Of a stretch of 44,566 bases of DNA, positions 4,865-20,714 are shown piece after piece. Below the pieces are notes generated by a model. It searched no databases and was not told the origin of the DNA. It saw only the letters and a list, made by a program, of their open reading frames with translations. Every line of letters begins with the position of its first letter. Position 1 is the stretch's first letter. This DNA comes from Clostridia bacterium. GTDB lineage: Bacteria > Bacillota > Clostridia > Oscillospirales > CAG-272. Both the position numbers and the translations under genes were made by a program. The DNA lies in assembly GCA_017504605.1 (NCBI GenBank), contig JAFVQW010000025.1, positions 1-44,566 on the forward strand. The letters run 5' to 3'.

Positions 4865-7800
4865 TTAGTCAAAGAATTTGCTGTAGCGGCTAATCATCTC
4901 AAAGAGCTCTTCCTCGGTAAGATTGCCCTTTCCGATAGAAATCTTAAGATATGCACCGCCTGCAGCGTTGAACATCTCCTCGGAAAGAGGACAAATAGCG
5001 TTCAACTCCTCATAGGTGTAAAGGCCGTAGGTCTCTATATCCCTCTGCATTGCCTCGTAGTCGTAGGTCATCGTCTCGGGGTCAACGTCAAAGATATTGA
5101 AGAGACCGCCGACACCGCCGGGCATGGAAAGCATACCGTTTACGAAGTAGCAAAGATGTCCTTCGGTAACAGGGCTCCAGGCGGTAGTAAGCTCGGTTTC
5201 TATAACTACGTTAACAAGCTGTACCCTCTCAAGAGTATCACCGTTCTGCTTTGCGAAGGTGTGACCGATGTAATCAGCCGCATTTCTGTCGAGGTAAACG
5301 TACTTGTTAAGGTCATAATCCCAGAAGCCGTGCTCGGAAATCACCTTAACCTCCGTACCGTCGGAGAAGTAAAGCTTAATTACCTCATACGCCGCCTCAG
5401 CCTCGCTGTCAACGAACATAATGGGCGCCTTATCAAGCTTACCCGTCTCCATATTCCAAACGAGAAGCTCCTCGTTGCCCTTGAGGGAGTCAACGCGAAC
5501 CTGAGTTCCGTCTGCAAGAGTAATAAGTGTGTCGGGGGTTATGCATTCAGTAATACCGCCGCTGCTCGCTTCAAGCTTCTTCAAGGTTCCGTTACAGAAA
5601 TCGGAATACTTGTATTGCTCGTCTTTGTTTTCTGATACCGACCAGGTATGACTGAATGTAAGAACATCACCATTGTTGTTATCCTTAAACGAATATGAAA
5701 CAGGGATTGTTCTTGCACTGTTACCGCTGTTTACAAGTCCTTTCGAGCTTGCTGCAACGAAATAGAGCTTATCGTCACACACAACAGGCATGGCGTTGAC
5801 GCTATTACCTGAATGCACCTGACCGCCGGTGAGCGTAAGCGTAAAGTCGCCGTTGTCGGGAGAATAGGTCCACGTGGTATCGGTTCCGTTCAGCTTGCCT
5901 GCGGTAGTGGGCGTATAATCCGAAAGAGTTATTGTCTTATATTGTCCTTCCGCAACGCTCCAATACTTAATCTGAATGCCCTCGAGTGCGGGTGCCGCGC
6001 CGTGCCAGGTTCCACCGTACGAGGAAGCAACGCAAAGTCCAGCCCCATAATTTGAAGCAACGAGCGAAGGAGATTCCTTGCTGGTCTCCGTACCTGTTAC
6101 CTTATAGGTCGCGGTATATTCCGTACCGTCGACCGTAGCAGTCAAGGTGTAGGTCGTACCGCCCGCTGTTACAGCGACAGGAGAAGTAGGCTTAGCATTT
6201 CCGTTCACCTTGAAATCGGTGATGGCTACGCCGTTTACCGACATCGAAAGCTTGCTGAAATCAAGAGCATAGCCCGAAAGCTTATCAAGGTCAACGTTGA
6301 GCTCGTATACCCAACCGTCTGTACCGAAGGATTTGTCCGTGGTAAGGCCGTCTGCCGTGTCGGAATAATTTACAGTAATAATGTCACTTTGCTTGTTGGG
6401 TTTATATTCCGATTCGGTCTTAAAGCTATCTGCGGTACCGTTTGAATTGTTGTAGGAGTAAACATAAACCGTGGTAGACAATATTGCAATCTGAATTTTA
6501 ACATCCTTCATCTCATAAGGAATTGTTGCCTTATCAGTTCTATTGTCAGTAATATTATCAGGAGCTGCCACAGTTTTTTGTGCGTCCTCGGGCATATATG
6601 CAAAACCAAGGTTTAAGGAATCTTTTCCGTTAATGTTATGAATAAATGCGGTTTCTTTCATAACACCGTCAACAATATCCTGACCGGCCGAAGGAACATA
6701 TTGCTTATCATCTGCATTGACCCATGCCTGCTGAACAAACGAGCCATTCAGGGTTGTAGGTGTTGCTTTTCCTTCGGAATCGCAGAGATAAAGCACGCTG
6801 AAGCCCATTAGCTTCTTGTTAGAATCATAGGTAGAAGCGGTAGGCTTCTGAATAAGGGTAACATCTTTCAATTTAAGGCTATTTGCCGAGCCTACAAGAA
6901 TAGATGCAACCGCGCCAAGCTCGATACGCGAGTTGTCAATTACGCAGTTACCGCCCGAAACGTTAACAGCTGCACGGCCGCCGGAGATGCGAGAGTTAAG
7001 TATCTGGCTGTTGCCGCTTACCATAACGCCGCTCTTGACGTTAAAGTAACGTGTTTTATCGGTTGTTTCCTTTCTATTACCACTTTCAGTCATGTTGCTC
7101 TTGTAGAGCACTGCATAATCGAAGTTAGGACAAACGATCTGTACGTTATCAAGCGTTCCGTTACTCAAGGTTACAAATGCATAACCCATATCAAGCGCCG
7201 CAGAATCGCCACTGCAGGTCATGGTAAATCCGTTACCGTAGAGGGTATAACCGCCCGAAACCTTAAGAGAACTGAAGCCCATGTCATTAAGAAGAACAAC
7301 ATTGTTCTTCGTAGCACTCGTTGCAGTCGTTGCGTTTACTGCATCAACTACCTCGAGATAAAGCTCGGTAGGAATACAATAGTCGTTATCGGTGACGGTC
7401 ACCTTAACAACACCTGTGCCGATAAACTGAATTGCATTGTTGGAATACTTACCACTTGCAGAGGTATTGTCGATTGCTTCAACAGTTACCGAAACGGTAC
7501 CTATCTCCACACCGTCCTTTGCCTTGAAGAGCCTATCAAGAGCGACGGTTCCGATATTACCTACGCGGTGAAGGAAGTCGCCGTTGTTCATCACAACATC
7601 GAACTTAACCTCGGGCTGACGCTCGGTAATATTTACCGTCAATTCCGTAGGAGTACAGAAGTAGTAGTCCTGAATTGTAAGCTTGATATTACCCGTGCCC
7701 GAGAACTTAATCGTGCTGTTTTCCCAGTTGTCACGGTCGTAATCAATATCTGCGGATACGTTTCCGTTTTCGTCAAGGTTCGCGATGCCTACAGTAAGGG

Positions 7801-10513
7801 CGCCGGGAACAAGCTTGACGCCACAATTCTCAAGGTAAGCAAAGATTGCACTAAGCTTATACACTCTATTATTTGTGAGTTCGGACTTAAGAACATCAAA
7901 CTTCTCGACGGATGCTTCCTGATCGCCGGAGGTAACATCCAAATTGGTAACGCCGTTCAAATTGGTGAGGCTTCTACTGGTCACACCCCAGCCGTAGCCG
8001 GTTACGAGGTTGTTGAATTCAAGGTACAGGTGCTGTTTGTCTTCTACGAGAACCTTAACGCCATCAACCATTTCTTCGCCTGCGTCGGAATGGTTCCAAA
8101 CCTTACCATCCTTAAAGTGATAGCAGGTTGCGTTGTCGGTGCCGTGTCCCTTGGTGTAGTCAACTATAACGTAGTTGGCTCTACCCGAAGCGGGGACGGT
8201 TCCCGTCGTGCCGTCAAGGTATGTGATGGTTGTGCCGTCGATCGCCTTGATCTCGGTCAAGCGGCTCATCTGATAGTCGTGCGTATAAGATGCGATTGTA
8301 TTGTCAATGATCTCGCAATAGTAGTAGTCGTTCCATGTGCCGAAATGAACCGTGCATCCGCTCGCAGTGATGCCGTCCATCTTAGGATAAACGTGTCCGT
8401 CAATCGTCTCATTCTCGCGAACCGAGCCGATCAGCATACCCGTGTAACGGTATGCGTAGTACTGATAGTTAGCACAAACATCGTTATAGACATCCATCTG
8501 CGCGGAAACGTGGCAGTTTACAAATTCAATGCCCGCATTCTTGGGAGTGCCCGCAGAGGTCTGACCGCTGGTCGGATAATACTGACCTGCGATGCCGCCG
8601 CAAGCAACGTCGTAAGAGCCCCAAAGTGCGCTTATCTTATTGGAATTGTCAACGGTAATGTTCGTAAAAGTGGTTTTAAGGTCTACTTCTTGAGCATACC
8701 ATCCAACGCAACCGACGATACCGCCATTGCCGATGTTATAAACACGGGGATTGCAGTCAGAGATTGCAATATTTTCAAAGGTTGCGCCATCAGCGTATGC
8801 TGCGATAACGCCCGTAGTGGTATACTCTCCGTCGGAAGAGAAATTCTTAACGGTGAGATTCTTTACAGTACCTTTGTAGATCTTACCGAAAAGTCCCATA
8901 CCATCGCGGTAGTACTGCTCGGATGCGGCATAATACTCGTTGTCGCCCTTCATTTCCCACGTATTGTGGTAGAAGTTCGAGATGGTATTTCCATTACCGT
9001 CGAAAATACCGGAGAATTTTCTGAGCCCGCTTGTGATAGCGGTGCCAGTCTTTTCGTAAGTACCTTCGCTGTTATAATAACCGATGGGGTAGAAAATAAG
9101 GTCGGGGTTGTTTTCGCTTTCCTTGTCGCCGAGGTTGATGTCTGCGATAAGCTTAATGTACTCGCCCTCAAAGGTCTTTCCGTTTTCATCACCCTTCATA
9201 CCGCCAACAACAGCGCCAAAATATGCAAGCTGGTCGGCGTTTGCGATAAGGTAGGGGTCGGTCTCGGTTCCCGAGCCGCCCGCGAAGGCGGTTGCAACCG
9301 TGCCGTTCCACGCGTTCACGGTGTTAGCGACAAGAGCAATCTCGGAGAAGGAGCAGAGCGCCATGGTGACGTCACCCGTCGCGGGGTCGTAGATAAACTC
9401 GTTATGAGCATCGAGGGCCGCGAGGTCATCCTCGTAGGTCATCTTAACCGTAACGCCGTCCTCTACGTGGTAGAGAGCGAAGTTACCCATATTGAGACCG
9501 GGGGCGAGGAGCTTCTTAACCGTTACGAGAATGGGGGTAGCGTTACCCTCCTTGATACCGCTGACGTGAACGTCAACAGAGTTCAAAATCTCGTTCTCGT
9601 AAAGCTCGACGTTGCTCTTTGTGCTATTGAGGGTCGTGACGTCGAGGGTGACGGTGGTAGTACCGTCAATCAGGGACGTGCCCGCGGGAATGATGGCCGT
9701 AATCTCCTCGTTGCCGCTCTTCAGCGTTACCTCGTCGACAAGAGCGCCGCTCGCATTGACGTTAACCGATGCAGAGGCACTGTAGTCTCCGCTGAAGGAG
9801 GGGAAGCCTGCGCCGCTGTCGTAGCCGTTACCGAGGCTGTCGTTCTCATAGTCGTACTGAGTTGCCTTGAGGTTTACGTATACGTCACCGACAGAGAGGT
9901 CCTGGTAGTCGTTCCCTGCCTTCTTATTCATATGAAGTGCGATTTTCAAGGTCTGTCTGCCAACCTCGGTGTGCGCGGGCGAGTTAGCCTCGGGCACACG
10001 TCCGTTAGGAAGGAGCTGACCGCTGATGAAGGAGTAGGGGTTGTCAAGGACCTCGGTAAGAGTTCCCTTCTTAACCCAAGCGCTACTTGCGGCTATCTCC
10101 TCGACGGTGCCGCCCGCTACGTCGCCGTATGCAACGTAGACGTCGATAACGTCACCGAGAAATTCACCGTTGTCGCCGAGGACGGCAGTGTTATCGGCCA
10201 CCTCGAGAGAAAGCCTGTACTTGAACGCGAGCGTGCCAAGGTTCATAACCTCGAGCGTCTCGATGCGTGTATATCCGGGCTCCCACTTGTCATAGTCGAA
10301 AATTTTATGCGTGCTCTTATCCTTGAGCGAGACGTCGCCGCTTGCCGTCTTATGTATAAGGTCAAGCTTCAGCGTTCCTGCCTCAATGATATTGCCCTCG
10401 CTCGTCTTCGTGTCGGTAAACCACGAGAAGGTGGTTCCGATAAGAGAGGTGATGAGCATTACCATAGCAAGCAGAGCGGAAATTAACCGCTGCTTTACGG
10501 TGCCTTTCTTCAT
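4865..10513 (-). CDS. giant SipW-type surface protein with beta-helix regions and C-terminal Hint domain
   Basis: 1,882 residues. Signal: helix at about 8-28, then GTTFSWFTDT, as in TasA/camelysin proteins. Residues ~30-240 form a TasA-like domain (WEPGYTRIETLEVMNLG). About 240-400 is a module shared with the 10646-12427 protein. GGSGTETDPYLIANADQLAYF (near 420) opens a repeat-rich GLUG/beta-helix-like region; a second right-handed-helix-like stretch lies near 1090-1300 (GRAAVNVSGGNCVIDNSRI). The C-terminus carries a Hint domain beginning at Cys1657 (CITPDTLITLADGTQVRVDSL), with SEHGFW (His1728) and GHLCYFVNGMLS near 1786-1795, then an 86-residue helical tail. No LPxTG or S-layer anchor is visible. 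The Hint domain probably self-cleaves at Cys1657. Role inferred: large cell-surface adhesin or fibre component. Confidence 0.85.
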   Translation of the reverse strand: MKKGTVKQRLISALLAMVMLITSLIGTTFSWFTDTKTSEGNIIEAGTLKLDLIHKTASGDVSLKDKSTHKIFDYDKWEPGYTRIETLEVMNLGTLAFKYRLSLEVADNTAVLGDNGEFLGDVIDVYVAYGDVAGGTVEEIAASSAWVKKGTLTEVLDNPYSFISGQLLPNGRVPEANSPAHTEVGRQTLKIALHMNKKAGNDYQDLSVGDVYVNLKATQYDYENDSLGNGYDSGAGFPSFSGDYSASASVNVNASGALVDEVTLKSGNEEITAIIPAGTSLIDGTTTVTLDVTTLNSTKSNVELYENEILNSVDVHVSGIKEGNATPILVTVKKLLAPGLNMGNFALYHVEDGVTVKMTYEDDLAALDAHNEFIYDPATGDVTMALCSFSEIALVANTVNAWNGTVATAFAGGSGTETDPYLIANADQLAYFGAVVGGMKGDENGKTFEGEYIKLIADINLGDKESENNPDLIFYPIGYYNSEGTYEKTGTAITSGLRKFSGIFDGNGNTISNFYHNTWEMKGDNEYYAASEQYYRDGMGLFGKIYKGTVKNLTVKNFSSDGEYTTTGVIAAYADGATFENIAISDCNPRVYNIGNGGIVGCVGWYAQEVDLKTTFTNITVDNSNKISALWGSYDVACGGIAGQYYPTSGQTSAGTPKNAGIEFVNCHVSAQMDVYNDVCANYQYYAYRYTGMLIGSVRENETIDGHVYPKMDGITASGCTVHFGTWNDYYYCEIIDNTIASYTHDYQMSRLTEIKAIDGTTITYLDGTTGTVPASGRANYVIVDYTKGHGTDNATCYHFKDGKVWNHSDAGEEMVDGVKVLVEDKQHLYLEFNNLVTGYGWGVTSRSLTNLNGVTNLDVTSGDQEASVEKFDVLKSELTNNRVYKLSAIFAYLENCGVKLVPGALTVGIANLDENGNVSADIDYDRDNWENSTIKFSGTGNIKLTIQDYYFCTPTELTVNITERQPEVKFDVVMNNGDFLHRVGNIGTVALDRLFKAKDGVEIGTVSVTVEAIDNTSASGKYSNNAIQFIGTGVVKVTVTDNDYCIPTELYLEVVDAVNATTATSATKNNVVLLNDMGFSSLKVSGGYTLYGNGFTMTCSGDSAALDMGYAFVTLSNGTLDNVQIVCPNFDYAVLYKSNMTESGNRKETTDKTRYFNVKSGVMVSGNSQILNSRISGGRAAVNVSGGNCVIDNSRIELGAVASILVGSANSLKLKDVTLIQKPTASTYDSNKKLMGFSVLYLCDSEGKATPTTLNGSFVQQAWVNADDKQYVPSAGQDIVDGVMKETAFIHNINGKDSLNLGFAYMPEDAQKTVAAPDNITDNRTDKATIPYEMKDVKIQIAILSTTVYVYSYNNSNGTADSFKTESEYKPNKQSDIITVNYSDTADGLTTDKSFGTDGWVYELNVDLDKLSGYALDFSKLSMSVNGVAITDFKVNGNAKPTSPVAVTAGGTTYTLTATVDGTEYTATYKVTGTETSKESPSLVASNYGAGLCVASSYGGTWHGAAPALEGIQIKYWSVAEGQYKTITLSDYTPTTAGKLNGTDTTWTYSPDNGDFTLTLTGGQVHSGNSVNAMPVVCDDKLYFVAASSKGLVNSGNSARTIPVSYSFKDNNNGDVLTFSHTWSVSENKDEQYKYSDFCNGTLKKLEASSGGITECITPDTLITLADGTQVRVDSLKGNEELLVWNMETGKLDKAPIMFVDSEAEAAYEVIKLYFSDGTEVKVISEHGFWDYDLNKYVYLDRNAADYIGHTFAKQNGDTLERVQLVNVVIETELTTAWSPVTEGHLCYFVNGMLSMPGGVGGLFNIFDVDPETMTYDYEAMQRDIETYGLYTYEELNAICPLSEEMFNAAGGAYLKISIGKGNLTEEELFEMISRYSKFFD

Positions 10514-10645: not shown

Positions 10646-12427
10646 TTAGGGGATTACAATACCGCCGTTGCCGAGATCAATGTCGCCGCCAAGGGAGATA
10701 TTGCCGTCACCGTTGTTGATAGCATCCTGTAAGCCTTCAGCGGTGGTAACAACGGTTACACCGTCAATAACGGAGTTGCCGCCGAAGGTGTGAGTTACGA
10801 CGTTTACATCGTAGGTCTCGGTCTCATCCTCGGGATTGGTGAGACGAAGCTTAACGGTAAAGGTGGCGCCATCAAGCTTATTCTGTGCATCACCTACGCC
10901 GCACGTAAATACCTCGACGAAATCAGCAACCATCTCGTACGTCCAGTTGCTCTTACCACCGGAAAGAGCCGTTCCAAGAAGGCCAATCTCGGTGTTTGCC
11001 TCAAGGGTCATGTCGCCGTTGTGGAATCCTACAAGCCAGGTGTCATACTGACCGCCAAGGAAGATTTCGTTTGCGCCAAGATCTCTGTCAAGAGATACGT
11101 AGAAATCGCAATACCAGTTCTTATATGCCTCATAAACCTCCTCAGAGAGCTCGGGACAGGTAAATACGAATGCAGCGTCAAGGGTTGCATCGAGGCCCTC
11201 GGTGGGTGCCCACTGACCGTAGTCGCCCCATTCGATCTCGGTGTTAACCCACTCGGGGTAATATACTACGGTTGCCTTGGGGGGCTCTAAACCATCGGTT
11301 TCGGGAGCCTCATACTCACCGTTAGCATCGTAAACGTAGGTAAAGGGAGAGAAGTTGGTGGTATTGATTTCAAGCTCACCGTTGTTGGGGTTGTAAGTAT
11401 AATCACCCTCGGGAAGAATGGAATTCTCGTGATAGAGAATGAGGTTGGTAAGGCCTTCCTCAATAGTCAACTGTACCTTTACGTTCTCGGCGTTGTCATC
11501 CCTAAGACCGTTCACTTTAATCTCAAGAGTAGTAGCCCCCTTGTTAGCGCCTACAGCAATTCTATCGTCAAGCGTGGTCTCAATTACGCTCGCGCTAACA
11601 CCAGTTGCTCCGTCGACGACAGCGCCCGCGGGAATAAGTACGCTACCATTATAACCGCCTGCGGGATTCTTAAGCTTAATCTCGTACGATGACTGACCGT
11701 CAACTACGGGAACGTAACCGGAAAGAACGACGGGATACTCTGCGCCTGCATCGTACTGGTTGCCGTTGCTGTCGCTCTCATACGCTGCCTGAGTTGCGAG
11801 AATGGTAATGTCAAACTTGCCGCCAAGGTCAAGTCCCTGATACTCGTTGCCGGCATCGGGGTCCATCTGAAGAACAAGGCCGAGGTAGGACTCCTGTCCC
11901 TCCTTAAGAGTGCCCTTAGTAAGAGCGGTGAAGTTCTCAACGAAGTCGCGAAGAGTGAACTTCGTGAACTCGCCCGCATCAGCAAGTGCATCAAGGTCGG
12001 AAGCCACGGTAAGAGTGTCGAGGTAGGGTCTGACGGTGTCAGAGGTATCGTCGCTCTTTACGTAAACGTAGATAACGTCAGCAAGTATGGAAAGGTTCTT
12101 CTCGGTGGTGATAGCAGCCTTCCAAGCGATTGCGAGGTTGCCGAGGTTAGTTACACGAAGATTTACTATCTGGGTGTAGCCGGGCTCCCACTTGTCATAG
12201 TTGAAGATAGCACTGTTGCCGTCTGCATCCTTAGCGGTTGCATCAACCCAAGCGGTGCCATCCCACTTGTCAAAGCCAATCTTGAGAGTACCCGTCTTGA
12301 TAACGTTGCCCTCGGACGATGCGGTGTCGGTAAACCAAGCAAAGGTGGTACCTACAAGCATCGTGAAGCACATGCAAAGTGCAAGAACGCTTGCAAGCAG
12401 TGCTCTCTTAGTAGAGTGCTTTTTCAT
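10646..12427 (-). CDS. TasA/camelysin-like SipW-type surface protein, C-terminal beta-helix cut short
   Basis: 593 residues. The signal helix (about 9-30) ends in GTTFAWFTDT, then the classical TasA-like opening ASSEGNVIKTGTLKIGF, the NYDKWEPGYTQIVNLRVTNLGNLAIAWKA strand region and DAGNEYQGLDLGGKFDITILATQ, the camelysin-type end of the domain (about residue 215). Residues ~240-385 match a module in the giant neighbour; 385-555 is a further beta-rich domain of unknown role. The last 33 residues (TTAEGLQDAINNGDGNISLG...) look like the first turn of a beta-helix repeat of the kind that usually continues for hundreds of residues, but a stop follows GGIVIP. Likely the main fibre-type subunit or an adhesin. 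The ATG at 12427 has an AAGGAG site. The SipW-like peptidase gene ends 18 bases upstream. Confidence 0.85.
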   Translation of the reverse strand: MKKHSTKRALLASVLALCMCFTMLVGTTFAWFTDTASSEGNVIKTGTLKIGFDKWDGTAWVDATAKDADGNSAIFNYDKWEPGYTQIVNLRVTNLGNLAIAWKAAITTEKNLSILADVIYVYVKSDDTSDTVRPYLDTLTVASDLDALADAGEFTKFTLRDFVENFTALTKGTLKEGQESYLGLVLQMDPDAGNEYQGLDLGGKFDITILATQAAYESDSNGNQYDAGAEYPVVLSGYVPVVDGQSSYEIKLKNPAGGYNGSVLIPAGAVVDGATGVSASVIETTLDDRIAVGANKGATTLEIKVNGLRDDNAENVKVQLTIEEGLTNLILYHENSILPEGDYTYNPNNGELEINTTNFSPFTYVYDANGEYEAPETDGLEPPKATVVYYPEWVNTEIEWGDYGQWAPTEGLDATLDAAFVFTCPELSEEVYEAYKNWYCDFYVSLDRDLGANEIFLGGQYDTWLVGFHNGDMTLEANTEIGLLGTALSGGKSNWTYEMVADFVEVFTCGVGDAQNKLDGATFTVKLRLTNPEDETETYDVNVVTHTFGGNSVIDGVTVVTTAEGLQDAINNGDGNISLGGDIDLGNGGIVIP

Positions 12428-12445: not shown

Positions 12446-13201
12446 TTAGTTGTTGTTATTTTCGCCGCCGTCGGCGGTGTCAGACGGAGTGTTCCCCGCC
12501 TGTTTTGCGAGCTGCTCCTTAAGAGCCTGTAGCTCGCGAAGCATTTTCTCGGACTCCTCCCGCTGCTTAGCAAGCTCTCTGCGCTCTGCCTCAATGTCCG
12601 CAACCTGCTCCTGCTTATACTGCCTGAACAGCTTTACGGTGTTAACTCCCTGCCATATTATGAGAAGGAGAAAGGGCACGAGTATACAGACTATGTAGCC
12701 CGGGGTAGTCTTCAAAAAGTTAAAGAAATGTCCAACGAGGGGGATCTTACCCGCGTACGTGCCGAGCACGTACGCAGGTTCAACCGTTGCCTCGTCGTTC
12801 GTATCGGTGTTGGTACCGTAGGTGACGTAGCCGAGAAGCTCGCCCCTGCTGTTACGCTTCACCTCGCGAATTCTGTGCGTTACCGTCTTGCCAATGCTGT
12901 CCTTGTTCTGCGATACGAAGGCGATGATTTCTCCCGCCTCAAGAGTCGTAGGATCGTCTACGCTCTTGATTATAACGATATCGCCGGCGTTAAAGTGAAC
13001 CTTATCATCCTTGTTCTTATCGGATTTACTCATTGAATCGGACAGTACGACGTAAAAGCGTATGCCGAAGAGCTCGCGCTCGTTTTTATCAAATGTGAGG
13101 GTTGAGAAGAGAGTAAATACCATCATACATACGGTAAATACAATAAGAATACAGGATAGAATTTTCTTTATAACGTCAAGCGCCTTGTTGGTGTTTTCCA
13201 T
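12446..13201 (-). CDS. sipW: signal peptidase I, SipW (ER/archaeal type)
   Basis: 251-residue membrane protease that removes the unusual signal peptides of TasA-like proteins in this locus. Seen: N-terminal transmembrane helix (about 13-33), Ser nucleophile in VVLSDSM, GDIVI, His in VTHRIREV in place of the bacterial catalytic Lys (the Ser-His form of ER/archaeal peptidases and B. subtilis SipW), a second transmembrane helix (about 168-190) and a long charged C-terminal coiled coil (IEAERRELAKQREESEKMLRELQALKEQ) that would lie in the cytoplasm. That tail is also present in the second SipW of this locus and is not part of the catalytic fold. ATG at 13201; the previous gene stops 8 bases upstream, so translation is probably coupled. 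Confidence 0.92.
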   Translation of the reverse strand: MENTNKALDVIKKILSCILIVFTVCMMVFTLFSTLTFDKNERELFGIRFYVVLSDSMSKSDKNKDDKVHFNAGDIVIIKSVDDPTTLEAGEIIAFVSQNKDSIGKTVTHRIREVKRNSRGELLGYVTYGTNTDTNDEATVEPAYVLGTYAGKIPLVGHFFNFLKTTPGYIVCILVPFLLLIIWQGVNTVKLFRQYKQEQVADIEAERRELAKQREESEKMLRELQALKEQLAKQAGNTPSDTADGGENNNN

Positions 13202-13209
13202 TATGAAAA

Positions 13210-13806
13210 TTACTCCTTAACGTCTTTAACGTCGACATTTCCCTGCACTGCGTGAACGGTTATGCCAATACCCGAGTATTCCTTGCTCTGGAAGAAGTTG
13301 CCCGCGTCTTCCTTCATCTTAATTACTAAGTAGTAGACCTCGGTGCTCTTCGTCTCGGGGCCAAGGTGCCCCTCGAATTCGCTGAGATGCTCAGTAGTGG
13401 TTCCCTCCGAAGACTCCCTCACTATATAAATGTCAAACGCGCGCTCGAGCTCCCGAACATCAATATTCGGGTCCTCGCTGACGTAGACACGGTAGTTTAT
13501 CGGAATGTTTCCGTCGTTCTCTACCCTGAAGCCTCGGGTATAGTAGGTTGCTCCCGGCTCGAAGTAAATATCTTCCTGCTCCAAGTCGGACTTAAACGTC
13601 AACACCTTACCTATCAGTGAGGCGTCTGTCTCGGCATCAATGATGTCGACCTTTATACGTCCGGTCGTGGTTATAACGCCGATGGTGCCGTCGCCGGCGT
13701 CGCTCGTAAAGAGGGCGAGCGTTGCGCCGGTCAGACACACAAGGCAAAGCAGTATAACAATTACCGCTATAATGATTGTCTGAGTATTCGTTTTATAACG
13801 GGTCAT
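13210..13806 (-). CDS. TasA/camelysin-like SipW-type protein (minor subunit)
   Basis: 198 residues. After a short basic start, a helix (about 9-30) ends in GATLALFTSDAGDGTIGVITTTGRIKVDI, the signal and first strand of the TasA family. YFEPGATYYTRGFRVENDGNIPINYRVY matches the family core, and the end (DAGNFFQSKEYSGIGITVHAVQGNV) is a variant of the GNEYQ...ATQ motif. There are two adjacent ATG codons; the second (13806) lies 5 bases from GGAGG and is preferred. It stands directly upstream of sipW, the place tapA/yqxM holds relative to sipW in B. subtilis, so an assembly or anchoring role is possible, but this is inference from position only. Confidence 0.8.
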   Translation of the reverse strand: MTRYKTNTQTIIIAVIVILLCLVCLTGATLALFTSDAGDGTIGVITTTGRIKVDIIDAETDASLIGKVLTFKSDLEQEDIYFEPGATYYTRGFRVENDGNIPINYRVYVSEDPNIDVRELERAFDIYIVRESSEGTTTEHLSEFEGHLGPETKSTEVYYLVIKMKEDAGNFFQSKEYSGIGITVHAVQGNVDVKDVKE

Positions 13807-13863
13807 CATTACCTCCTTGCCGTTAAGATTTTTTGGGCTACGGCGGTTAAGCCGTGCTAAAGA

Positions 13864-16023
13864 TTAGCCAAATACTACACAATCAGCAAGAGTTCTGCCA
13901 GAGGGGAGCTCTATGGTGATGTAAGATGTGTAATTAGCAGCCGTGAGAACAACACCGTTGACGGTGCAATTCGTGAGCGTGACCGTGCAACCTGCATCGA
14001 GAGCGGAGAGGTCAACGTAGAAGCCCTCCTCGAACTCACAATCGGTAAACACAGTACTTACATAGGGCCTTACAAGACGGTCGTAGTCCTGGCCGTAGCC
14101 GTTATTCTGCCAATACTTTGCGCTGTTCTCGCCAAACTTACAATTATCGAAGCTTACAGAATCAAGTCCCGCAAGACTGGTCCAGCCGTTAATGGTGGAA
14201 TTGCTAATGTAGAGCTTCTTACCGTTATGCTCGGTGGTATTTACAGCGTAACCGGGACCGTCGATAACGACGCTATCGATGTAAACGTCCTCGGTGGGAG
14301 AGGAAATAACTATTCCGCGTCCAACGGCAGTATCAATTACGAGGTTCTTAATGGTTCCGCCGTAGGTCTCGATTGCATAACCATTGTACTGAGGATTTTC
14401 GATGTCGAGAGAGTTTCCGTTGCCGTCAAAAACGCCGCCCTCTACTTTTACAGCTACGGGAGTTCCGTAAATAGCGGAGTTTGCAAGAGGAGCTACGACA
14501 TCCTCGGTAAGAACGATGTAAGCATCTTCGAGCTTGCCGCCGTTAAAGCTGCTCGCATCATTGACTACAACGAGACCCATATCGGTAAGATTAGACATCT
14601 TGTAAAGGTTGTCATTGCCGTCAGCCACAGGCTCGGATGCGAAATCGAAAAGGCCGAAGTTTCCAACGTTGTTCTCATATCTAAGATTGAGATTATCCGC
14701 GGTGTAGCTGGTCTTAAGGTTGAGAACGTTGAACTCGTCAGCATTCGCGGTGTTAACGAAGGCGTTCTTCTTAACGGTGATGGTGTATACGCCATTACCC
14801 TGACGGCTCGAGCCGAACGCAGCCTTATCTGCCGCCCAGTTCGTGAAGGTGTTACCTACGATATACCAATCGGAGCTATTACCGGTAGCGTTAATCGCAT
14901 TGTGAACGGTGCCGCTCGCGGTGCTGCCGAAGGTGTTATAGGTAATCGTAGCGGTACCTGTAGCAAGGTAATTAAGACGAACGTAGTTAAGTGCTACGCA
15001 GTCGAAATTACAAGCGGTAACGGTGATGTCGGATGCACGCTCAGTAGCACGGCCCTGCTCCTCAAAGAAAATGGGAGCGTAATTTGCGGGGTCAGCCGCA
15101 GTTCCGGTGAAGGTGCAGTTCTTGATAAGAACGTTATCAGCAGATACAGCCTTCACGTCCGCTGTGCCCGAGCCGGTAATGCTGCAGGTATAAGCGGTTG
15201 CGCCGCTCTTAGCAGAGTAGGTGGTCTTCGCACCTGCGGCGTCAAAGGTGATGCCGTCAAGCGTAATGCCGTCCTTAGCATTGAGGTCGACAAAGTCAAC
15301 CACAGCGCTGTTGGTTACGAGCGTGAGATTGTTCTGAGTCATCTTGAGGCTACCGTACTTACCGGCAACAAGACCGATTACGGTGTCTTCCTCGACAGAC
15401 GCAAGCACGCCGTCGATGGTCTCGGGAGTTGCGAGAACGTCACACATAGGAACGTAGTCAGCAACGCCGTTACCCTGAACCGCGATTACGCCGAAGTCAA
15501 TCTCTGCGGTCTGCTCCTGATACTCGTTGCCAACGGTCTTAGGAAGATCGATGGTAACAGAGATGGTGCGAGTCTTCTCAGCCTCGCTCGCGGGAACGGC
15601 CCACTCGGTCCAAGCGGACGTGCCGCCCACAAGAGTCTCGCCGTCAGCGGTTGCTACGAGCGCCTCAGCAAGCTTTCCGTTTACAGCCCAGGTAAATCTG
15701 TACTGTACGGCAACGTTGCTATTATTGGTCATAACTACCTTAAAGGTCGCCTTGTCTCCGGGGGTAACGTTCTCGAATACCAGAGTGTTCGCATCGGTGA
15801 ACTCTGCCGTACCTCCGTTCTCAAAGGTGCCCGTCTGTGCTACGTCCATAGAGTAGAGCTCGAGAGAGGTGTCATCTATGGTAGCAATCATCTCAACCTT
15901 ACCGGACTTGATGGAAATGTCCGCATTGCTCTCACTCGTAAAGAGTGCGAAGGTCGAGCCCGCGATAAGACTAAGGCAAAGTGCGATAGTCAGTATCGAG
16001 GATACTAATACCTTTTTTTTCAT
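13864..16023 (-). CDS. TasA-like domain fused to parallel beta-helix, SipW-type surface protein
   Basis: 719 residues. Signal helix (about 5-24) followed by GSTFALFTSESNADISIKSGKV. The TasA-like domain (to about residue 190) contains FENVTPGDKATFKVVMTNNSNVAVQYRF and the closing IDLPKTVGNEYQEQTAEIDFGVIAVQG. Residues ~205-719 are a pectate-lyase-like right-handed beta-helix, read from regular short repeats such as VLIKNCTFTG, ITVTACNFDC, IYNSTINGW-like turns (LYISNSTINGWTSL) and SFDNCKFGENS. No polysaccharide-lyase catalytic motif was recognised, so a binding or structural role is more likely than an enzyme. ATG at 16023 with AAGGAG upstream. It follows the 204-residue subunit by 48 bases and precedes another TasA-like gene. 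Confidence 0.85.
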   Translation of the reverse strand: MKKKVLVSSILTIALCLSLIAGSTFALFTSESNADISIKSGKVEMIATIDDTSLELYSMDVAQTGTFENGGTAEFTDANTLVFENVTPGDKATFKVVMTNNSNVAVQYRFTWAVNGKLAEALVATADGETLVGGTSAWTEWAVPASEAEKTRTISVTIDLPKTVGNEYQEQTAEIDFGVIAVQGNGVADYVPMCDVLATPETIDGVLASVEEDTVIGLVAGKYGSLKMTQNNLTLVTNSAVVDFVDLNAKDGITLDGITFDAAGAKTTYSAKSGATAYTCSITGSGTADVKAVSADNVLIKNCTFTGTAADPANYAPIFFEEQGRATERASDITVTACNFDCVALNYVRLNYLATGTATITYNTFGSTASGTVHNAINATGNSSDWYIVGNTFTNWAADKAAFGSSRQGNGVYTITVKKNAFVNTANADEFNVLNLKTSYTADNLNLRYENNVGNFGLFDFASEPVADGNDNLYKMSNLTDMGLVVVNDASSFNGGKLEDAYIVLTEDVVAPLANSAIYGTPVAVKVEGGVFDGNGNSLDIENPQYNGYAIETYGGTIKNLVIDTAVGRGIVISSPTEDVYIDSVVIDGPGYAVNTTEHNGKKLYISNSTINGWTSLAGLDSVSFDNCKFGENSAKYWQNNGYGQDYDRLVRPYVSTVFTDCEFEEGFYVDLSALDAGCTVTLTNCTVNGVVLTAANYTSYITIELPSGRTLADCVVFG

Positions 16024-16071: not shown

Positions 16072-16686
16072 TTATGCGGTTGCCTGTGTCGCAGTTACTA
16101 TGAGGTCGAATACTACTGCCAGATCCTTTGCATCATTATTGTCCGCCTGGTCCGGGAAATCAACTCTGACTCCAAAGGTCTGCACCGTGTCTCCGTTCTT
16201 CATAGTTCCGACGGTAATTTCAAGTCCCGCAATAAGCTGGTCAAGGCTTACCTCGGTCTTCGTGTTGTCGGGATGTGTGATGGTAACGTCAATCTGCTCT
16301 GCAAGGGCATTACTGCCGCTGATAAGCTTAATAGTCACCGTGTAGTTGAAGGCAACGTTTCCGCCGTTCGCGAGCTCCATCGTAGCATCAAAATAGCTGC
16401 CGGGGACAATCTTCATATCCGTCGCATCTATTCCGAACACGTTCTCCCCTGTCGCGCCCGTGAAGTCCTCGGTAGTGCCGACCGTCGTGGTCTTCAGCAT
16501 TCCGTATTCATCGAGCACGCGGTATTCGAGGTTGGTTCTCGTGAGGGTTACGTCGAGATTACCCGCCTTCAAGTGGTTTTTAACTGTCGCGCTATCTGTG
16601 AAAAGTGCGTAGGTCGAGCCGACGATTATACACATACAGAGCATAATAATCGAGCAGGACACCAGAAGCGCTCTCTTTTTACGCAT
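16072..16686 (-). CDS. TasA/camelysin-like SipW-type protein
   Basis: 204 residues from the ATG at 16686, chosen because a consensus AAAGGAGG lies 7 bases upstream; the frame is open 17 codons further but without a site. The signal is MRKKRALLVSCSIIMLCMC followed by GSTYALFTDSATVKNHLKAGNLDVTL, clearly TasA/camelysin. The domain continues with IVPGSYFDATMELANGGNVAFNYTVTI and ends DAKDLAVVFDLIVTATQATA, the usual ATQ-type C-terminus. There is no extra domain, so this is the single-domain subunit closest in size to a polymerising fibre protein. It lies between the uL15-like membrane protein and the beta-helix protein. Confidence 0.85.
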   Translation of the reverse strand: MRKKRALLVSCSIIMLCMCIIVGSTYALFTDSATVKNHLKAGNLDVTLTRTNLEYRVLDEYGMLKTTTVGTTEDFTGATGENVFGIDATDMKIVPGSYFDATMELANGGNVAFNYTVTIKLISGSNALAEQIDVTITHPDNTKTEVSLDQLIAGLEITVGTMKNGDTVQTFGVRVDFPDQADNNDAKDLAVVFDLIVTATQATA

Positions 16687-16738
16687 AATAAGTCCTCCTT
16701 TCTTAAAGCGTTTATTGAGTTTCTGCATAAGCAGCAAA

Positions 16739-17317
16739 TCAATTCAAAATTATAACCGTTCCGCCCGTGAGCTCTATCATCTTGATAGCGGCGAGCGAGA
16801 ACGCCTCGGCCCTGACGGTAAGCGGCTTATCAAGAATACCGTCGGCGAGAATCTTAAGGCTATCCGCCTTCTTAGGTATGAGACCTCTCTCGCGAAGGGC
16901 CTCTATATCAACCTCATCGCCCGCAGAGAACTCACCGGAAACTCTACCTATATTTATAAATACGCGCTTACCGCGCTTGCCACCCGCCTCGGTATGTACC
17001 GCATGCTCGGCTGTGAAGTCGTCAAGCAGGGCATCCACCTCCTCGGCGGAGACCGCCTCGACCTTCTCTATTATGGGCTCGGGCTCGGGAATAGGCTCGG
17101 GCTCAGGCTCGGGTATGGGCTCTATCTCGACTATAGGCTCGGGAATAGGCTCGGGGATAGGATCGTCGAGTATCATTTCCTCGTACAATTCGTTACCGTC
17201 CTTATTATCTCGGCGCCGAGGCAAGCGTTCTCTTATCACGTCTACGGCGACGTATACGAGATTCGCTATTGCCACCGTAGCAGAGAAAATAACGAATATT
17301 ATTACAAAAGTCTTCAT
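16739..17317 (-). CDS. membrane-anchored protein with Pro-Glu repeat and ribosomal-L15-like domain
   Basis: 192 residues: a transmembrane helix (about 5-27), a basic stretch RERLPRRR, a Pro-Glu/Ile repeat (about 52-82, PIPEPIPEPIVEIEPIPEPE), then residues ~116-192 that resemble the C-terminal half of ribosomal protein uL15. The key similarity is GLIPKKADSLKILADGILDKPLTVRAEAFSLAAIKMIELTGGTV against the L15 pattern GLIKK..D.VKILG.GEL.K.LTVKAH.FS..A...IE.AGG. The positively charged N-terminal half of L15 is absent, so it cannot replace ribosomal L15. The charge pattern suggests the L15-like part faces the cytoplasm or the membrane surface. The start codon overlaps the stop of the second SipW gene (ATGA), so the two are translationally coupled. 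Function unknown; tied to the fibre export locus by position. Confidence 0.8.
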   Translation of the reverse strand: MKTFVIIFVIFSATVAIANLVYVAVDVIRERLPRRRDNKDGNELYEEMILDDPIPEPIPEPIVEIEPIPEPEPEPIPEPEPIIEKVEAVSAEEVDALLDDFTAEHAVHTEAGGKRGKRVFINIGRVSGEFSAGDEVDIEALRERGLIPKKADSLKILADGILDKPLTVRAEAFSLAAIKMIELTGGTVIILN

Positions 17318-18081
17318 TTACTGTCATCCTCACCGTTATGCTCAGTCGGCTCTGCCGCGCGGCGCTCGAGCTGTTCGAGTCTCTGCCTGAGAAGCTCAAG
17401 CTCGTCATCCTTCTTCTTCATCTGCTCTTGCTCCCGTTTCTTTTTCTCCGCCGTAAGAACTCTTACGATTTTTAAGACCTCGAGCAAGATAATGATAAAA
17501 CACGGTACGATTACCAGAAGAGCGACTCCGAGAGGCTGCTTAAGCAGGCTCATCAAAAAGCCGAAAACACGCGCCTGCCCCGTCACCTTACCTATAACGT
17601 AGTTGGGGCTGTCGACGAGCGTAGTGTCTATTGTTTGGTAGAGCTGGTCGGTATCGGCATTCTTGTTGTCTCCCGCAAGCTCTATTACGTATCCCCCCGC
17701 CTTCTCGGTTATCGAGGTGATACGGTGGGTTATGGTTACCTGTGTCGTATAAACGTACTTAATGGTCAGAACGTCGCCGACACGAAGATTCGAGTACCAC
17801 TCAAGAGCCTCCCCCGCGTCACTCGGGACACACTCCACGAATACCATAGAGTAGAGGGGTATGCTCTTAATTTTAAAGTCCGAGACGTCGGTCTCGTCAC
17901 ACCTCGCCATTGAGTTGGAGACGACGATGCGCATCTGTCTGCCGAAAACGGTAGCCGTGCCGTCAGGATCGCGCTTAGCCGTCAGGGTGAATATAAGTGA
18001 AAGTACGCAGATAAGGAGAAAGAGGTATAAGAGAACGTCGCCTATAATCTTTAAGGCCTTCTTGCCTCCCGTCTTATTCAT
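17314..18081 (-). CDS. second SipW-type signal peptidase I
   Basis: 255 residues from the ATG at 18081, which has GGGAGG 6 bases upstream (the frame is open 5 codons further, without a site). Transmembrane helix at about 10-33, Ser nucleophile in RIVVSNSMARC, GDVLTIKY, catalytic His in VTITHRITSI, LAGDNKNADTD, second helix at about 175-200, and a C-terminal cytoplasmic coiled coil (KKKREQEQMKKKDDELELLRQRLEQLERR). It is only moderately similar to the other SipW in this locus, so they are not a recent duplication and may serve different subsets of substrates. It overlaps the upstream gene by 8 bases and the downstream uL15-like gene by 4. Confidence 0.9.
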   Translation of the reverse strand: MNKTGGKKALKIIGDVLLYLFLLICVLSLIFTLTAKRDPDGTATVFGRQMRIVVSNSMARCDETDVSDFKIKSIPLYSMVFVECVPSDAGEALEWYSNLRVGDVLTIKYVYTTQVTITHRITSITEKAGGYVIELAGDNKNADTDQLYQTIDTTLVDSPNYVIGKVTGQARVFGFLMSLLKQPLGVALLVIVPCFIIILLEVLKIVRVLTAEKKKREQEQMKKKDDELELLRQRLEQLERRAAEPTEHNGEDDSK

Positions 18082-18583
18082 AGAAGCCTCCCGCATTGCT
18101 TGTTTTAATAGTCAAGTCAAAGCTTGCCTCGGTATTTTGCGCTTCATTCCCGACCGACTCGGGTAGGTGGTATGTAATTTTAATCTCGTACGGCTCGCCC
18201 TCGGTAAGAGTGTCGTAGATAATTATGCTCTTGCCCGAAAGAAGCTCGGTGAGCTTCGCCGTCTTCCTGTTCGCCATTCCCTTACAGTCAATCTCGACGA
18301 CGAGATTCTCACACAGGCCGGCAGATGCCGTCCCATCGAATTCAAGGACTACCTCGTATTCGTCGGTAACCTCGGAATTAAGACGAACCGTGTAGCTGCT
18401 GCTCGCGCCCGGAATGAGAGCCAGGCTCTCAAACCTCACCTCCGAGCTCGTGCCGTCGGCTACGTCAACGTCTATGATATTGCTTCTGTTTGGATGGGTG
18501 ACGAAGTACACCGTCAGTCCTGCGCCGACAAGCAGCAGAACGCTGATAAGCGTCAGCATCGCGTATACGTATCCTCGCTTCAA
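18074..18583 (-). CDS. membrane-bound TasA-like protein
   Basis: 169 residues. N-terminal basic residues and one helix (about 8-28), then a beta-rich domain without the usual TFAxFT signal motif, so it may stay membrane-anchored instead of being released by SipW. The C-terminal IKITYHLPESVGNEAQNTEASFDLTIKTSNAGGFYE matches the closing motif of TasA/camelysin domains (LPxxVGNEYQ...FDLTV..TQ). The middle (SSSYTVRLNSEVTDEYEVVLEFDGTA) fits the family's SVxxxN core. As the first fibre-type gene after the small zinc-ribbon genes, and coupled to the second sipW, it could be an anchor or a nucleator. That role is inference. Confidence 0.65.
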   Translation of the reverse strand: MKRGYVYAMLTLISVLLLVGAGLTVYFVTHPNRSNIIDVDVADGTSSEVRFESLALIPGASSSYTVRLNSEVTDEYEVVLEFDGTASAGLCENLVVEIDCKGMANRKTAKLTELLSGKSIIIYDTLTEGEPYEIKITYHLPESVGNEAQNTEASFDLTIKTSNAGGFYE

Positions 18584-18876: not shown

Positions 18877-19074
18877 TAATTTAGTGATATTTTCGTGATT
18901 TTACACATAGATAAGAAGGGATGCCGTTCATTATTTTGTAAAATATAGCAGGCGTTTAGCTCTGCCGCACTCGGCACGAGGCTCAAGGCAAATGCAAAAT
19001 TAACAAAAAAGTAACAAAACCGCTCTGCATTTTGCCGCAACCGTTACGTATCGCCTTATCCGTCCTCTCCGAGC

Positions 19075-19245: not shown

Positions 19246-19263
19246 GTCGTCCTCCCGCAGTGC

Positions 19264-19410
19264 TTAAAGGGGCGGACGCTTTTTCTCGCCATTCGCACGG
19301 CTTTTACTAAGGCCGAAGAGCAGGCACATCACGCCCACCCCGACGGCAGCGCCGGTCCAAAGACCGATAAAAAACCACAAAAAATCCACTGTTCTCTCCA
19401 TTGAAGTCAT
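19264..19410 (-). CDS. small membrane protein (DUF3789-like)
   Basis: 48 residues from the ATG at 19410 (or 45 from the ATG at 19401): MTSMERTVDF, then a hydrophobic helix WFFIGLWTGAAVGVGVMCLLFG and a basic tail SKSRANGEKKRPPL. The Gly-rich helix followed by a short charged tail resembles DUF3789, a tiny membrane protein of unknown role often met in Clostridia accessory DNA. There is no clear ribosome site; a hairpin at 19411-19435 ends exactly at the start codon. It is the first gene reached by the promoter inside the candidate invertible segment. Confidence 0.55.
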   Translation of the reverse strand: MTSMERTVDFLWFFIGLWTGAAVGVGVMCLLFGLSKSRANGEKKRPPL

Positions 19411-19435
19411 CGCACGATTGGTTTTATTTCGTGCG
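19411..19435 (-). promoter_or_regulatory. hairpin abutting the start codon of the small membrane protein
   Basis: CGCACGA (19411-19417) and TCGTGCG (19429-19435) form a 7-bp stem with an 11-base loop. On the mRNA the 3' arm ends immediately before the ATG at 19410, where a ribosome site would be expected, so initiation may depend on melting of this stem or on coupling. Confidence 0.5.
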
Positions 19436-19509
19436 AAAGCGGTGCTTCTCCCGCTAAAGACGCGGGGCCGTTCTGTTTTAACAAAAAGGACCTAAAAATC
19501 AGAAAAGGC

Positions 19510-19559
19510 AACATAACGAGAGTTATGTCGCACCGAAAGCCACATAACGAGAGTTATGT
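19510..19559. repeat. left 50-bp inverted repeat of candidate invertible segment (IRL)
   Basis: A 50-base sequence that recurs as an exact reverse complement at 19782-19831. Each copy holds two 18-base dyads, ACATAACGAGAGTTATGT (7-base arms around an asymmetric GAGA), separated by about 14 bases. The arm-spacer-arm layout with an asymmetric centre is what tyrosine recombinase crossover sites look like. Confidence 0.9.
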
Positions 19560-19573
19560 GCTAAAAATTACCG

Positions 19574-19605
19574 AAAAAAATGAACTAAAACCGTTTCGGT
19601 TTAGT
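19574..19605 (-). promoter_or_regulatory. hairpin plus T-run at the presumed transcription start
   Basis: The arms ACTAAAACCG (19584-19593) and CGGTTTAGT (19597-19605) pair with one bulge; on the minus strand seven Ts follow (19574-19580). Because its 5' arm begins near the expected start of the 19608-19636 promoter, it could be an attenuator-like terminator, a 5'-end stabiliser or an operator. Confidence 0.45.
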
Positions 19606-19607
19606 CC

Positions 19608-19636
19608 ATTATATTACATTTATTTTGCAAAATCAA
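19608..19636 (-). promoter_or_regulatory. sigma-A promoter inside the invertible segment
   Basis: Minus strand: TTGATT (19631-19636), exactly 17 bases, then consensus TATAAT (19608-19613). Transcription would start near 19601 and run through the left inverted repeat into the genes at 19410 and 19245 and perhaps the whole fibre locus. Confidence 0.75.
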
Positions 19637-19678
19637 TAGTCTCGGCGAAATTTCGTAATTTTATACATAGCGAAAAAG

Positions 19679-19722
19679 CCTTTCGAAGAATTTTTTTGTA
19701 AAAATTAACGAAAGGTTTTTTT
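19679..19722 (+). terminator. asymmetric intrinsic terminator in the invertible segment
   Basis: CCTTTCG (19679-19685) pairs with CGAAAGG (19709-19715), with AATTTTT/AAAAATT nested inside. Seven Ts follow on the plus strand (19716-19722). On the minus strand the trailing sequence is only CTTTTT, so termination should be weaker in that direction. It may end the recombinase transcript at present and face the fibre locus after inversion. Confidence 0.7.
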
Positions 19723-19781
19723 GGTATGCAATTTTTCGGCAAGAAAATGGAAAATTAAGCCATTGAAAAAAGCAAAAGGCA

Positions 19782-19831
19782 ACATAACTCTCGTTATGTG
19801 GCTTTCGGTGCGACATAACTCTCGTTATGTT
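19782..19831. repeat. right 50-bp inverted repeat of candidate invertible segment (IRR)
   Basis: Exact reverse complement of 19510-19559, with the same two dyads (here reading ACATAACTCTCGTTATGT). It lies 40 bases from the 3' end of the recombinase gene. Confidence 0.9.
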
Positions 19832-19841
19832 TTCCTTTTTG

Positions 19842-19867
19842 CTCGGTGCTTCTCGCCGAGTTTTTTT
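19842..19867 (+). terminator. plus-strand terminator shielding the recombinase 3' end
   Basis: CTCGG (19842-19846), 9-base loop, CCGAG (19856-19860), then seven Ts. It reads only on the plus strand, so it would stop transcripts leaving the invertible segment in its flipped state before they run antisense into the recombinase gene. Confidence 0.6.
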
Positions 19868-19871
19868 ATTT

Positions 19872-20714
19872 TTATATTATAAGATGCATATTCTCCATCT
19901 TACGCCTGTGCTCCTCACCCGTGGTGACTATATAAATTCTCGTGGTGTTTATGCTCGCGTGTCCGAGTATATCTGCAAGCTTCGCTATATCCTTCTCTAT
20001 TCCGTAAAAGGTGCGGGCAAAAAGATGCCTTAAATTGTGGGGGAATACCTTCCCCTCTGCGACCCCCGCATCACGGCAGAGCGATTTCATCTGCCGCCAG
20101 ATGCTGTTCCGACTCACGGGCGCGCCGCTTCTCGTTACAAATACCGCTCCCGCGGCTATACCTTCCCTTTTACAGTACTGCCTCAGCTTGTCCCGAAGCC
20201 GAGTTAATATAAATATGCGGCGGCTCTTGCCCTTACAGCTCACGGTTGCCTCGCCTCTTTCGAGTGACTCCACCGTGATATACTTAAGCTCACTTACGCG
20301 TATGCCCGTCGAGCATATCGTTTGTATTATGAGATTCAGGCGCTCGTTGTTTTTCCTTTTTGCCGCCTCGGTAAGACGTATATACTCCTCGCGCGTGAGC
20401 TCACGCTCGGCAGAGCAATACGCCTCTCGCTGAACGCGAAGCTGTCGGACACAGAGCTCGTGCCTGCCGAGAAAGCGTAAAAAGCAGTTCAGTGCCGCGA
20501 GCATCGAATTGGTGCTGCGCGGAGCGTAGCTTGTGCACAGGCTGCTCTTATACTCCATAATTACCCCTCGGTCGAGCTCTGCCCCCTTTAAAAAGGCAAC
20601 GAAGCGCCTGACGTCGCGAAGGTATTTCTCGACCGTGGCGGCACTCCTCTCCTCGTTCTCAAGGTGGGACTTAAAGTCCAAAAGCTTAGTTTCGTTCAGT
20701 TTGGTTGTTTTCAT
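19872..20714 (-). CDS. tyrosine-type site-specific recombinase
   Basis: 280 residues, XerC/D-like phage-integrase family. It cuts and rejoins DNA through a 3'-phosphotyrosine at paired crossover sites. N-terminal SAM-like core-binding domain (about 8-90) and catalytic domain with all active-site residues: Arg139 (TGIRVSEL), Lys163 (CKGKSRR), His226 and Arg229 (PHNLRHLFA), His252 (LGHASINTT) and Tyr261 (TRIYIV). The length is that of simple XerC-like or inversion-type recombinases; there is no arm-binding domain as in phage integrases, and no excisionase or other mobile-element genes are nearby. The gene stands alone and ends 40 bases from the 50-bp inverted repeats, so it is the obvious candidate to invert the segment at 19560-19781. 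Ribosome site GGAG before the ATG at 20714. It could still be a housekeeping XerC-like enzyme or a relic integrase. Confidence 0.93.
   Translation of the reverse strand: MKTTKLNETKLLDFKSHLENEERSAATVEKYLRDVRRFVAFLKGAELDRGVIMEYKSSLCTSYAPRSTNSMLAALNCFLRFLGRHELCVRQLRVQREAYCSAERELTREEYIRLTEAAKRKNNERLNLIIQTICSTGIRVSELKYITVESLERGEATVSCKGKSRRIFILTRLRDKLRQYCKREGIAAGAVFVTRSGAPVSRNSIWRQMKSLCRDAGVAEGKVFPHNLRHLFARTFYGIEKDIAKLADILGHASINTTRIYIVTTGEEHRRKMENMHLII

Follow-up and report, generated by a model that had tools for sequence, protein, structure and literature searches.

The window analysed here (the whole stretch of 44,566 nt) contains a SipW/TasA-type secretion locus on the minus strand, preceded by a 222-bp segment with a predicted promoter between inverted repeats, as in an inverton, and by the gene of a tyrosine recombinase (Table 1). 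The type of the locus is indicated by a SipW-type peptidase standing beside proteins with SipW-type signals and by three proteins scoring above the cut-off of TIGR04088. It resembles the TasA/SipW operon of Bacillus subtilis in that SipW-type peptidases occur together with substrates carrying the SipW signal, among them a TasA/camelysin-like one, and differs from it in the number of SipW-type genes, of which there are two here, and in its additional, very large secreted proteins. The Bacillus operon is controlled by SinR/Spo0A-type regulators and is not known to be controlled by DNA inversion. The protein encoded at 16739-17317, which has an acidic linker and is conserved in two related loci (L085 and L179), places a ribosomal L15/L18e-type domain inside the operon.

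Table 1 Features of the SipW/TasA-type locus, the putative switch and the recombinase gene (window coordinates)
Feature	Position	Strand	Evidence or remark
1882-aa secreted protein, SipW-type signal	4865..10513	-	TIGR04088 6.3e-05; homologue in same locus of L179
593-aa secreted protein, SipW-type signal	10646..12427	-	PF12389 1.8e-05; TIGR04088 1.8e-05
SipW-type signal peptidase 2	12446..13201	-	NF046067 6.9e-26, below cut-off; TIGR02228 67.8 bits, above cut-off
199-aa protein, SipW-type signal motif	13210..13809	-	motif; no Pfam family
Secreted beta-helix protein, SipW-type signal motif	13864..16023	-	PF13229 1.6e-07
TasA/camelysin-like subunit, SipW-type signal	16072..16737	-	PF12389 7.4e-06, residues 31-68 only; TIGR04088 4e-05
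Protein with hydrophobic N-terminus and L15/L18e-like C-terminal domain	16739..17317	-	PF00828 8.8e-14; aligned with two relatives
SipW-type signal peptidase 1	17314..18096	-	NF046067 9e-18, below cut-off
169-aa protein, hydrophobic N-terminus, first long gene of the locus	18074..18583	-	same-place homologues in L025, L085, L179, L176
Locus-side arm	19510..19559	.	two recombination-site copies, 19511-19528 and 19542-19559
Putative invertible segment, predicted ON orientation here	19560..19781	.	homologous segments both ways among relatives
Predicted promoter TTGATT-17-TATAAT	19608..19636	-	reads towards SipW/TasA-type locus
Predicted bidirectional terminator within segment	19679..19722	.	stem CCTTTCG/CGAAAGG; T7 on plus, T5 on minus
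Recombinase-side arm	19782..19831	.	two recombination-site copies, 19782-19799 and 19813-19830
Predicted guard terminator	19841..19867	+	hairpin 19841-19861 plus T-run
Tyrosine recombinase, 280 aa, probable invertase	19872..20714	-	Pfam PF00589 6.7e-24

The leader of about 930 bp between the switch and the first long gene contains a duplicated stretch (18587-18716 and 19060-19180; 78% over 54 nt and 73% over 41 nt), each copy of which, as read by eye, could encode a small peptide with a cysteine pair. An attenuator in the leader after the promoter was considered and rejected: the leader of the window can be folded into a hairpin (z -0.9), the mean fold z over 61 loci is -0.65 with 14 of them below -1.5, and values as weak as these argue against a conserved attenuator. 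No Rfam element in the window reached its gathering score.

Arms, recombination sites, promoter and terminators

The initial annotation of this DNA had described perfect 50-bp inverted repeats around a promoter and a terminator. Direct reading confirmed that the two arms are exact reverse complements over 50 bp (repeat detection returned a 60-nt, 93% inverted pair that encloses them), but the arm as such proved not to be the repeated unit. Each arm carries the palindrome-like 18-bp sequence ACATAAC-GAGA-GTTATGT twice in direct orientation, at a spacing of 31 bp, and it is this site, with the family-level consensus ACATAAY-NNNN-RTTATGT, that forms the unit. Extra direct copies of the site give arms of the 2+2 kind in the window and in L142 and of the 2+1 or 1+2 kind in L085, L039, L066, L042, L083 and L090; in the sisters L085 and L039, which are in opposite states, the double arm lies on opposite sides.

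The promoter reading towards the SipW/TasA-type locus is present, by its likeness to the consensus, at 19636-19608 of the minus strand. With approximate score weights it reaches 13.1 bits, the best minus-strand site in 4000-19509 having 10.2 bits and the best one between the switch and the first genes (18500-19509) 7.9 bits; promoters and terminators are predictions throughout. The terminator within the segment, with its T7 face on the plus strand, was verified by its stem (19679-19685/19709-19715), and the additional plus-strand terminator postulated in front of the recombinase was found as well, in an arrangement that recurs across the family (see below).

The recombinase is XerA/XerC/XerD-like, with XerA, XerD and XerH among its relatives of solved structure, and stays under the cut-off of every NCBIfam model that it matched. 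Against PRK09870 and PRK09871, models of tyrosine-type DNA invertases which we take to be those of FimB and FimE, it obtains 25.1 and 28.7 bits where the cut-offs are 221 and 222, and so falls outside both. It is intact, in agreement with the initial annotation: its catalytic set R139, K161, H226, R229, H252 and Y261 shows no change in any of the 127 near-full-length rows (127 of 127), which include some loci fetched twice. A phage-borne origin was rejected after one scan of viral contigs had given a single distant match (29% over residues 128-262).

Recurrence of the cassette in Clostridia

The window represents a Clostridia-wide family in which a recombinase gene is followed by a putatively invertible segment. 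Among the first 40 genomes searched, the closest were G018 (same genus, 60% identity), G027 (54%) and G030, which has several copies, some of them truncated at contig ends. Alignment-based searches gave matches in 14 of 69 genomes of the genus (E ≤1e-40) and, in a sample of 394 genomes of the order, in 112 (E ≤1e-50). A scan of named genomes returned at least 574 relatives, the best 80 of which were analysed; these 80 are mostly gut MAGs from ruminants and other animals, together with a few isolates such as Clostridium transplantifaecale, Holdemania sp. and Lachnoclostridium sp. Of these best 80 of at least 574, 60 have enough sequence behind the recombinase, and in 56 of them inverted repeats (score ≥15) lie within the first 600 nt downstream of it, and repeats of the same score were found in none of the controls drawn from this set (upstream 0/79, farther upstream 0/63, inside the gene 0/80, shuffled 0/60).

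Sixty more loci came from multi-copy genomes. Repeats scoring ≥13 follow the recombinase in 49 of the 54 that have ≥500 nt downstream (recombinases 42-68% identical; shuffles 0, inside the gene 1/54), and the site letters have drifted in some of the divergent loci, e.g. to ACAAAAT/ATTTTGT. After matches of <150 aligned residues had been left out and recombinases identical at the nucleotide level merged (135 places to 121 rows), 87 of the 121 deduplicated loci had ≥500 nt downstream; some pair of sites with matching centres is present in 73 of these 87 and absent in 14. Among the 14 are L058, L062 and L065 of the G027 group, with recombinases 54-59% identical and no detectable sites. L026 (the place of L058), L062 and L065 belong to one genus (g4), and in L026 a fixed TTGACA-17-TATAAT, seen by eye, faces the next gene; these are perhaps locked or lost switches.

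Six or more recombinase copies were noted in G030 (L027-L035) and in G104 (L193-L198), many of them at contig ends. The arms of several G030 cassettes are near-identical, so that cross-recombination between loci seems possible.

Segments in both orientations

The comparison with related genomes suggested by the initial annotation, in search of both orientations, gave a positive answer. The segment of G018, where the locus is of this kind too and the recombinase is 60% identical, aligns with that of the window with a score of 72 when reversed and 41 when direct; the window switch is predicted to be ON and that of G018 OFF. The sisters L085 and L039 (the latter identical with L179), with nearly the same SipW/TasA operon, have opposite segments (141 reversed versus 52 direct), and in genome G042 the segment of L053 is opposite to those of L048 and L051, so that both orientations are found between related genomes as well as among the copies of one genome. 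Nearly the same gene order stands behind a predicted OFF switch in G059 (L179).

The better promoter points towards the recombinase (OFF) in 59 of 74 segments and away from it (ON) in 15; with a promoter margin of ≥3 bits these become 45 and 11 of the 74, and the median distance between the end of the -10 element and the nearer arm is 47 bp in either state. Promoter direction was compared with alignment in 45 well-aligned segment pairs, 34 of sure and 11 of unsure state, and the two agree in all 34 sure pairs (21 direct with the same state, 13 reversed-only with opposite states). ON and OFF rows show no clustering along the recombinase tree, as is expected of fast switching: 63 labelled rows (50 OFF and 13 ON, 11 left out) require 11 changes, the shuffled mean being 12.0 and 124 of 500 shuffles being as low. 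Among the best 80 of at least 574 named loci, 24 have a contig end less than 1 kb downstream of the recombinase, and 1 has one at such a distance upstream. Such breaks fit mixed orientations in the sampled populations, and repeated cassettes could contribute to them.

Site centres

The centres of the sites are matched within a locus and free between loci. First and last centres are reverse complementary in 71 of the 74 loci with ≥2 sites (≤1 mismatch each), a count made without choosing of pairs, the 73 of 87 given above taking any matching pair; the other three loci lie on contigs that break off within 200 nt and show two direct copies of one arm. These 74 loci have 46 different first centres, and the chance identity is about 0.04. 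In 142 aligned sites the centre positions hold only 0.01-0.30 bits each, and TTGTA is preferred as the inner flank. That the outer letters are nearly fixed is in part a product of picking sites by likeness to the consensus, which does not apply to centres and flanks. A centre that is free and yet locus-matched, between conserved arms, is the expected look of a site-specific recombination site.

Two readable and differing centres are found in 11 of 18 listed genomes (G401, G341, G265, G427, G088, G284, G232, G161, G322, G354 and G413; in G341, G265, G232 and G413 some were read from a single site), centres are shared within G116 and within G162, and 5 of the 18 have one readable copy. As to further genomes, G042 has three TTTC, G030 three TGGT and one TGAT, and G059 the differing GAGA and TATC. 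Selection for differing centres within one genome was considered and is unsupported, as chance alone would make most of them differ.

Terminators around the segment

Flipping had been proposed to remove the promoter from the locus and to set the terminator against read-through, and the recurring arrangement of predicted terminators supports this. In the gap between the recombinase stop codon and the first arm, long enough for counting in 65 of 74 loci, a guard hairpin facing the flipped promoter occurs in 45 of the 65 (shuffles 6) and a hairpin of the other orientation, pointing away from the recombinase, in 1 (shuffles 0). Within the segment, hairpins behind the promoter are found along its direction in 50 of 74 loci (shuffles 5) and against that direction in 60 of 74 (shuffles 4). 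Terminators placed in this way should stop transcription from the flipped promoter before the recombinase and should block read-through into the locus when the switch is OFF.

Helical phasing of the cassette

Inner site-to-site distances cluster near 219, 230, 240, 251, 262, 272, 284 and 295 bp. In 91 distances (those ≤310, 7 of 98 being dropped) the best period is 10.8-10.9 bp (R 0.62-0.66; periods 6-20 scanned), and it persists when the loci are thinned, on the basis of recombinase identity, to 81, 67, 41 and 30. A null in which each distance is jittered by ≤8 bases, and which includes no phylogenetic model, reached the observed signal 0, 0, 0, 0 and 1 times in 5000 for the 91, 81, 67, 41 and 30 loci, respectively, and 651, 1372, 3047, 4040 and 3273 times in 5000 for the control distance from the stop codon to the first site, which is unphased. 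Among the 81 loci, mutually <90% identical, 72 fall within 2.5 bp of a 10.5-bp phase where about 39 are expected, and 69 do so for 10.6-10.8. The period does not hang on the commonest peak (left out: n=66, period 10.7, null 0/5000), and the signal is weaker when only unique distance values are kept (null 55/5000 for the sites and 25/5000 for the promoter). A second set of 24 loci overlaps the first one, 5 of the 24 being ≥90% identical to a member, and replication therefore relies on 17 others with distances ≤310; these loci, <90% identical to the first set, give on their own a period of 10.8 (R 0.73, null 8/5000).

The -10 element is phased as well: in segments ≤292 with a promoter margin of ≥3 bits, its period is 11.1-11.2 relative to the near arm and 10.4-10.5 relative to the far arm (null ≤1/5000). 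No phasing is seen for the terminator hairpin of these segments (null 4434 to 5000 of 5000). We interpret the phasing as a trace of selection on a short synaptic loop that also holds the promoter, and one may speculate that transcription is coupled to synapsis.

Proposed mechanism and alternative explanations

It is highly probable that the 222-bp segment is an invertible promoter flipped by the adjacent recombinase, by which a SipW/TasA-type fibre locus is made phase-variable. This reading draws on what is legible in the DNA itself, i.e. the parts of the cassette, the finding of relatives in either orientation, the matching of centres, the recurrence of terminators and helical phasing. We infer from it that the adjacent recombinase is the invertase of the segment, that inversion occurs at present in this organism, that the product of the locus is a fibre and that expression of the locus follows the orientation of the segment. 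In the proposed mechanism the adjacent recombinase would bind the ACATAAY-NNNN-RTTATGT sites in the arms, two sites would be brought together on a short DNA loop, and strand exchange in the variable centre would reverse the segment. In the ON state, the present one, the promoter would drive the minus-strand SipW/TasA-type fibre locus; in the OFF state it would fire towards the recombinase, the guard terminator would stop the transcript and the segment terminator would block read-through into the locus. The outcome would be a reversible all-or-none (phase-variable) production of surface fibres.

A once-active switch that is now locked ON in this species is a very unlikely alternative in view of arms that are exactly identical over 50 bp, of intact catalytic residues and centres, and of inner, mixed and outer site distances in the window (240, 271 and 302) that all fall within 2.5 bp of the family phase. 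It would account for the single orientation seen in the assembly of this organism, and L058, L062 and L065 offer examples of a recombinase kept without detectable sites.

The segment may also invert through another recombinase, e.g. a housekeeping XerC/XerD-like one, the adjacent gene being a relic or a partner. The same genome does encode a second, distant tyrosine recombinase (G000:C28, 3.3e-10), and one recombinase of C. difficile serves several distant switches, as described in PMC5903667. We nevertheless regard this as very unlikely: of the 60 named relatives with enough sequence (among the best 80 of at least 574), 56 have the repeats right behind the gene, as do 49 of 54 further loci that include divergent ones with drifted letters, which points to a cognate pair of gene and sites, and the six catalytic positions of the adjacent recombinase are invariant.

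That the arms are terminal repeats of a MITE or paired transcription-factor operators beside an unrelated recombinase can practically be dismissed, for although the tandem palindromic 18-bp sites are readable as operators, the site has no other copy (≤1 mismatch) in the 1.74-Mb, 83% complete assembly and hence is not a dispersed element within the assembled part, its centres are matched between arms and free between loci, and homologous segments of opposite orientation occupy the same place beside the recombinase.

Relation to known inversion systems

An invertible promoter beside a recombinase gene, the preferred reading of the window, is a known kind of switch; set against open-licence PMC papers, the SipW/TasA target is new and the geometric rule unusual. 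In the fim switch of E. coli (FimB/FimE), according to PMC2784873 and PMC5903667, an invertible promoter is combined with tyrosine recombinase genes; the window shares with fim the short invertible promoter segment and a tyrosine recombinase in the same locus, the fim target being a surface fibre, as that of the window is predicted to be. It differs from fim in its one XerA/XerC-like recombinase, its sites, its SipW/TasA-type locus and its clostridial host.

RecV of C. difficile, a tyrosine recombinase of the XerC/D family, inverts segments of 154-230 bp, and its switches (cwpV, flagellar and others) resemble that of the window in the family of the enzyme, the clostridial host and the short segment. 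By the descriptions in the same papers (PMC2784873, PMC5903667), RecV acts on several distant sites, unlike what is proposed for the window enzyme, the repeats of most RecV switches are mutually unrelated, and the cwpV segment has no promoter inside, whereas the window segment has a predicted one.

The family of the window probably corresponds to hCom2 inverton group 139 and its linked invertase group 35 in a 2025 survey (PMC11892184). According to that survey, group 139 comprises 33 invertons, 32 of them from class Clostridia, is significantly linked to tyrosine recombinase invertase group 35 within 5 kb, and includes two examples that change orientation over culture passages. In contrast to the target found in the window, the terms 'signal peptidase', 'TasA' and 'camelysin' do not appear in its main text. 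Among open-licence PMC papers none was found that joins SipW and DNA inversion, in keeping with the earlier view that such a target was undescribed, and none that connects the helical turn with phase variation; helical phasing is mentioned for the serine invertase Hin in PMC3798978.

We put forward, as a tentative proposal that may well prove wrong, that these are Clostridia-wide self-contained cassettes in which sites and promoter are held on fixed helix faces so that arms and RNA polymerase share a compact loop, that an own four-base address would allow each cassette to flip independently within one cell, and that SipW/TasA-type fibres are phase-variable. If the switch acts as proposed, TasA/SipW-type matrix fibres, regulated biofilm components in Bacillus, would be subject to on/off phase variation in gut Clostridia. 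The readable site code and the pairing of gene and site would make the state of a switch callable from sequence and switches predictable in uncultured genomes, and helical phasing would provide a testable rule for short-loop tyrosine inversion in cells, with a hint of coupling between transcription and inversion.

Genes behind related cassettes

A SipW-like gene (E ≤1e-4 against the two of the window) lies within 9 kb downstream in 20 of the 81 loci with ≥600 nt, the window included. Some loci of this kind exist without the cassette too, since G002, G045, G021 and G067 have a SipW1-type gene and neither recombinase nor exact site in the fetched stretch. Among 77 proteins encoded by the first two genes downstream of the named loci (best 80 of at least 574), the most frequent Pfam families are camelysin-like (6) and TetR_N (5), followed by LRR, signal peptidase and zinc ribbon families (3 each) and, more rarely, by collagen-like, sortase, dockerin, SPFH and helicase families. 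As predicted from these annotations, related gut bacteria have the cassette in front of a wide variety of genes, surface genes being frequent among them. Prepilin-like genes with a GFTLVE motif were noticed behind the cassettes L030 and L034 of G030 and L057 of G162, the promoter facing the recombinase in L030, L034 (by eye) and L057; this suggests phase-variable type IV-like pili in this group.
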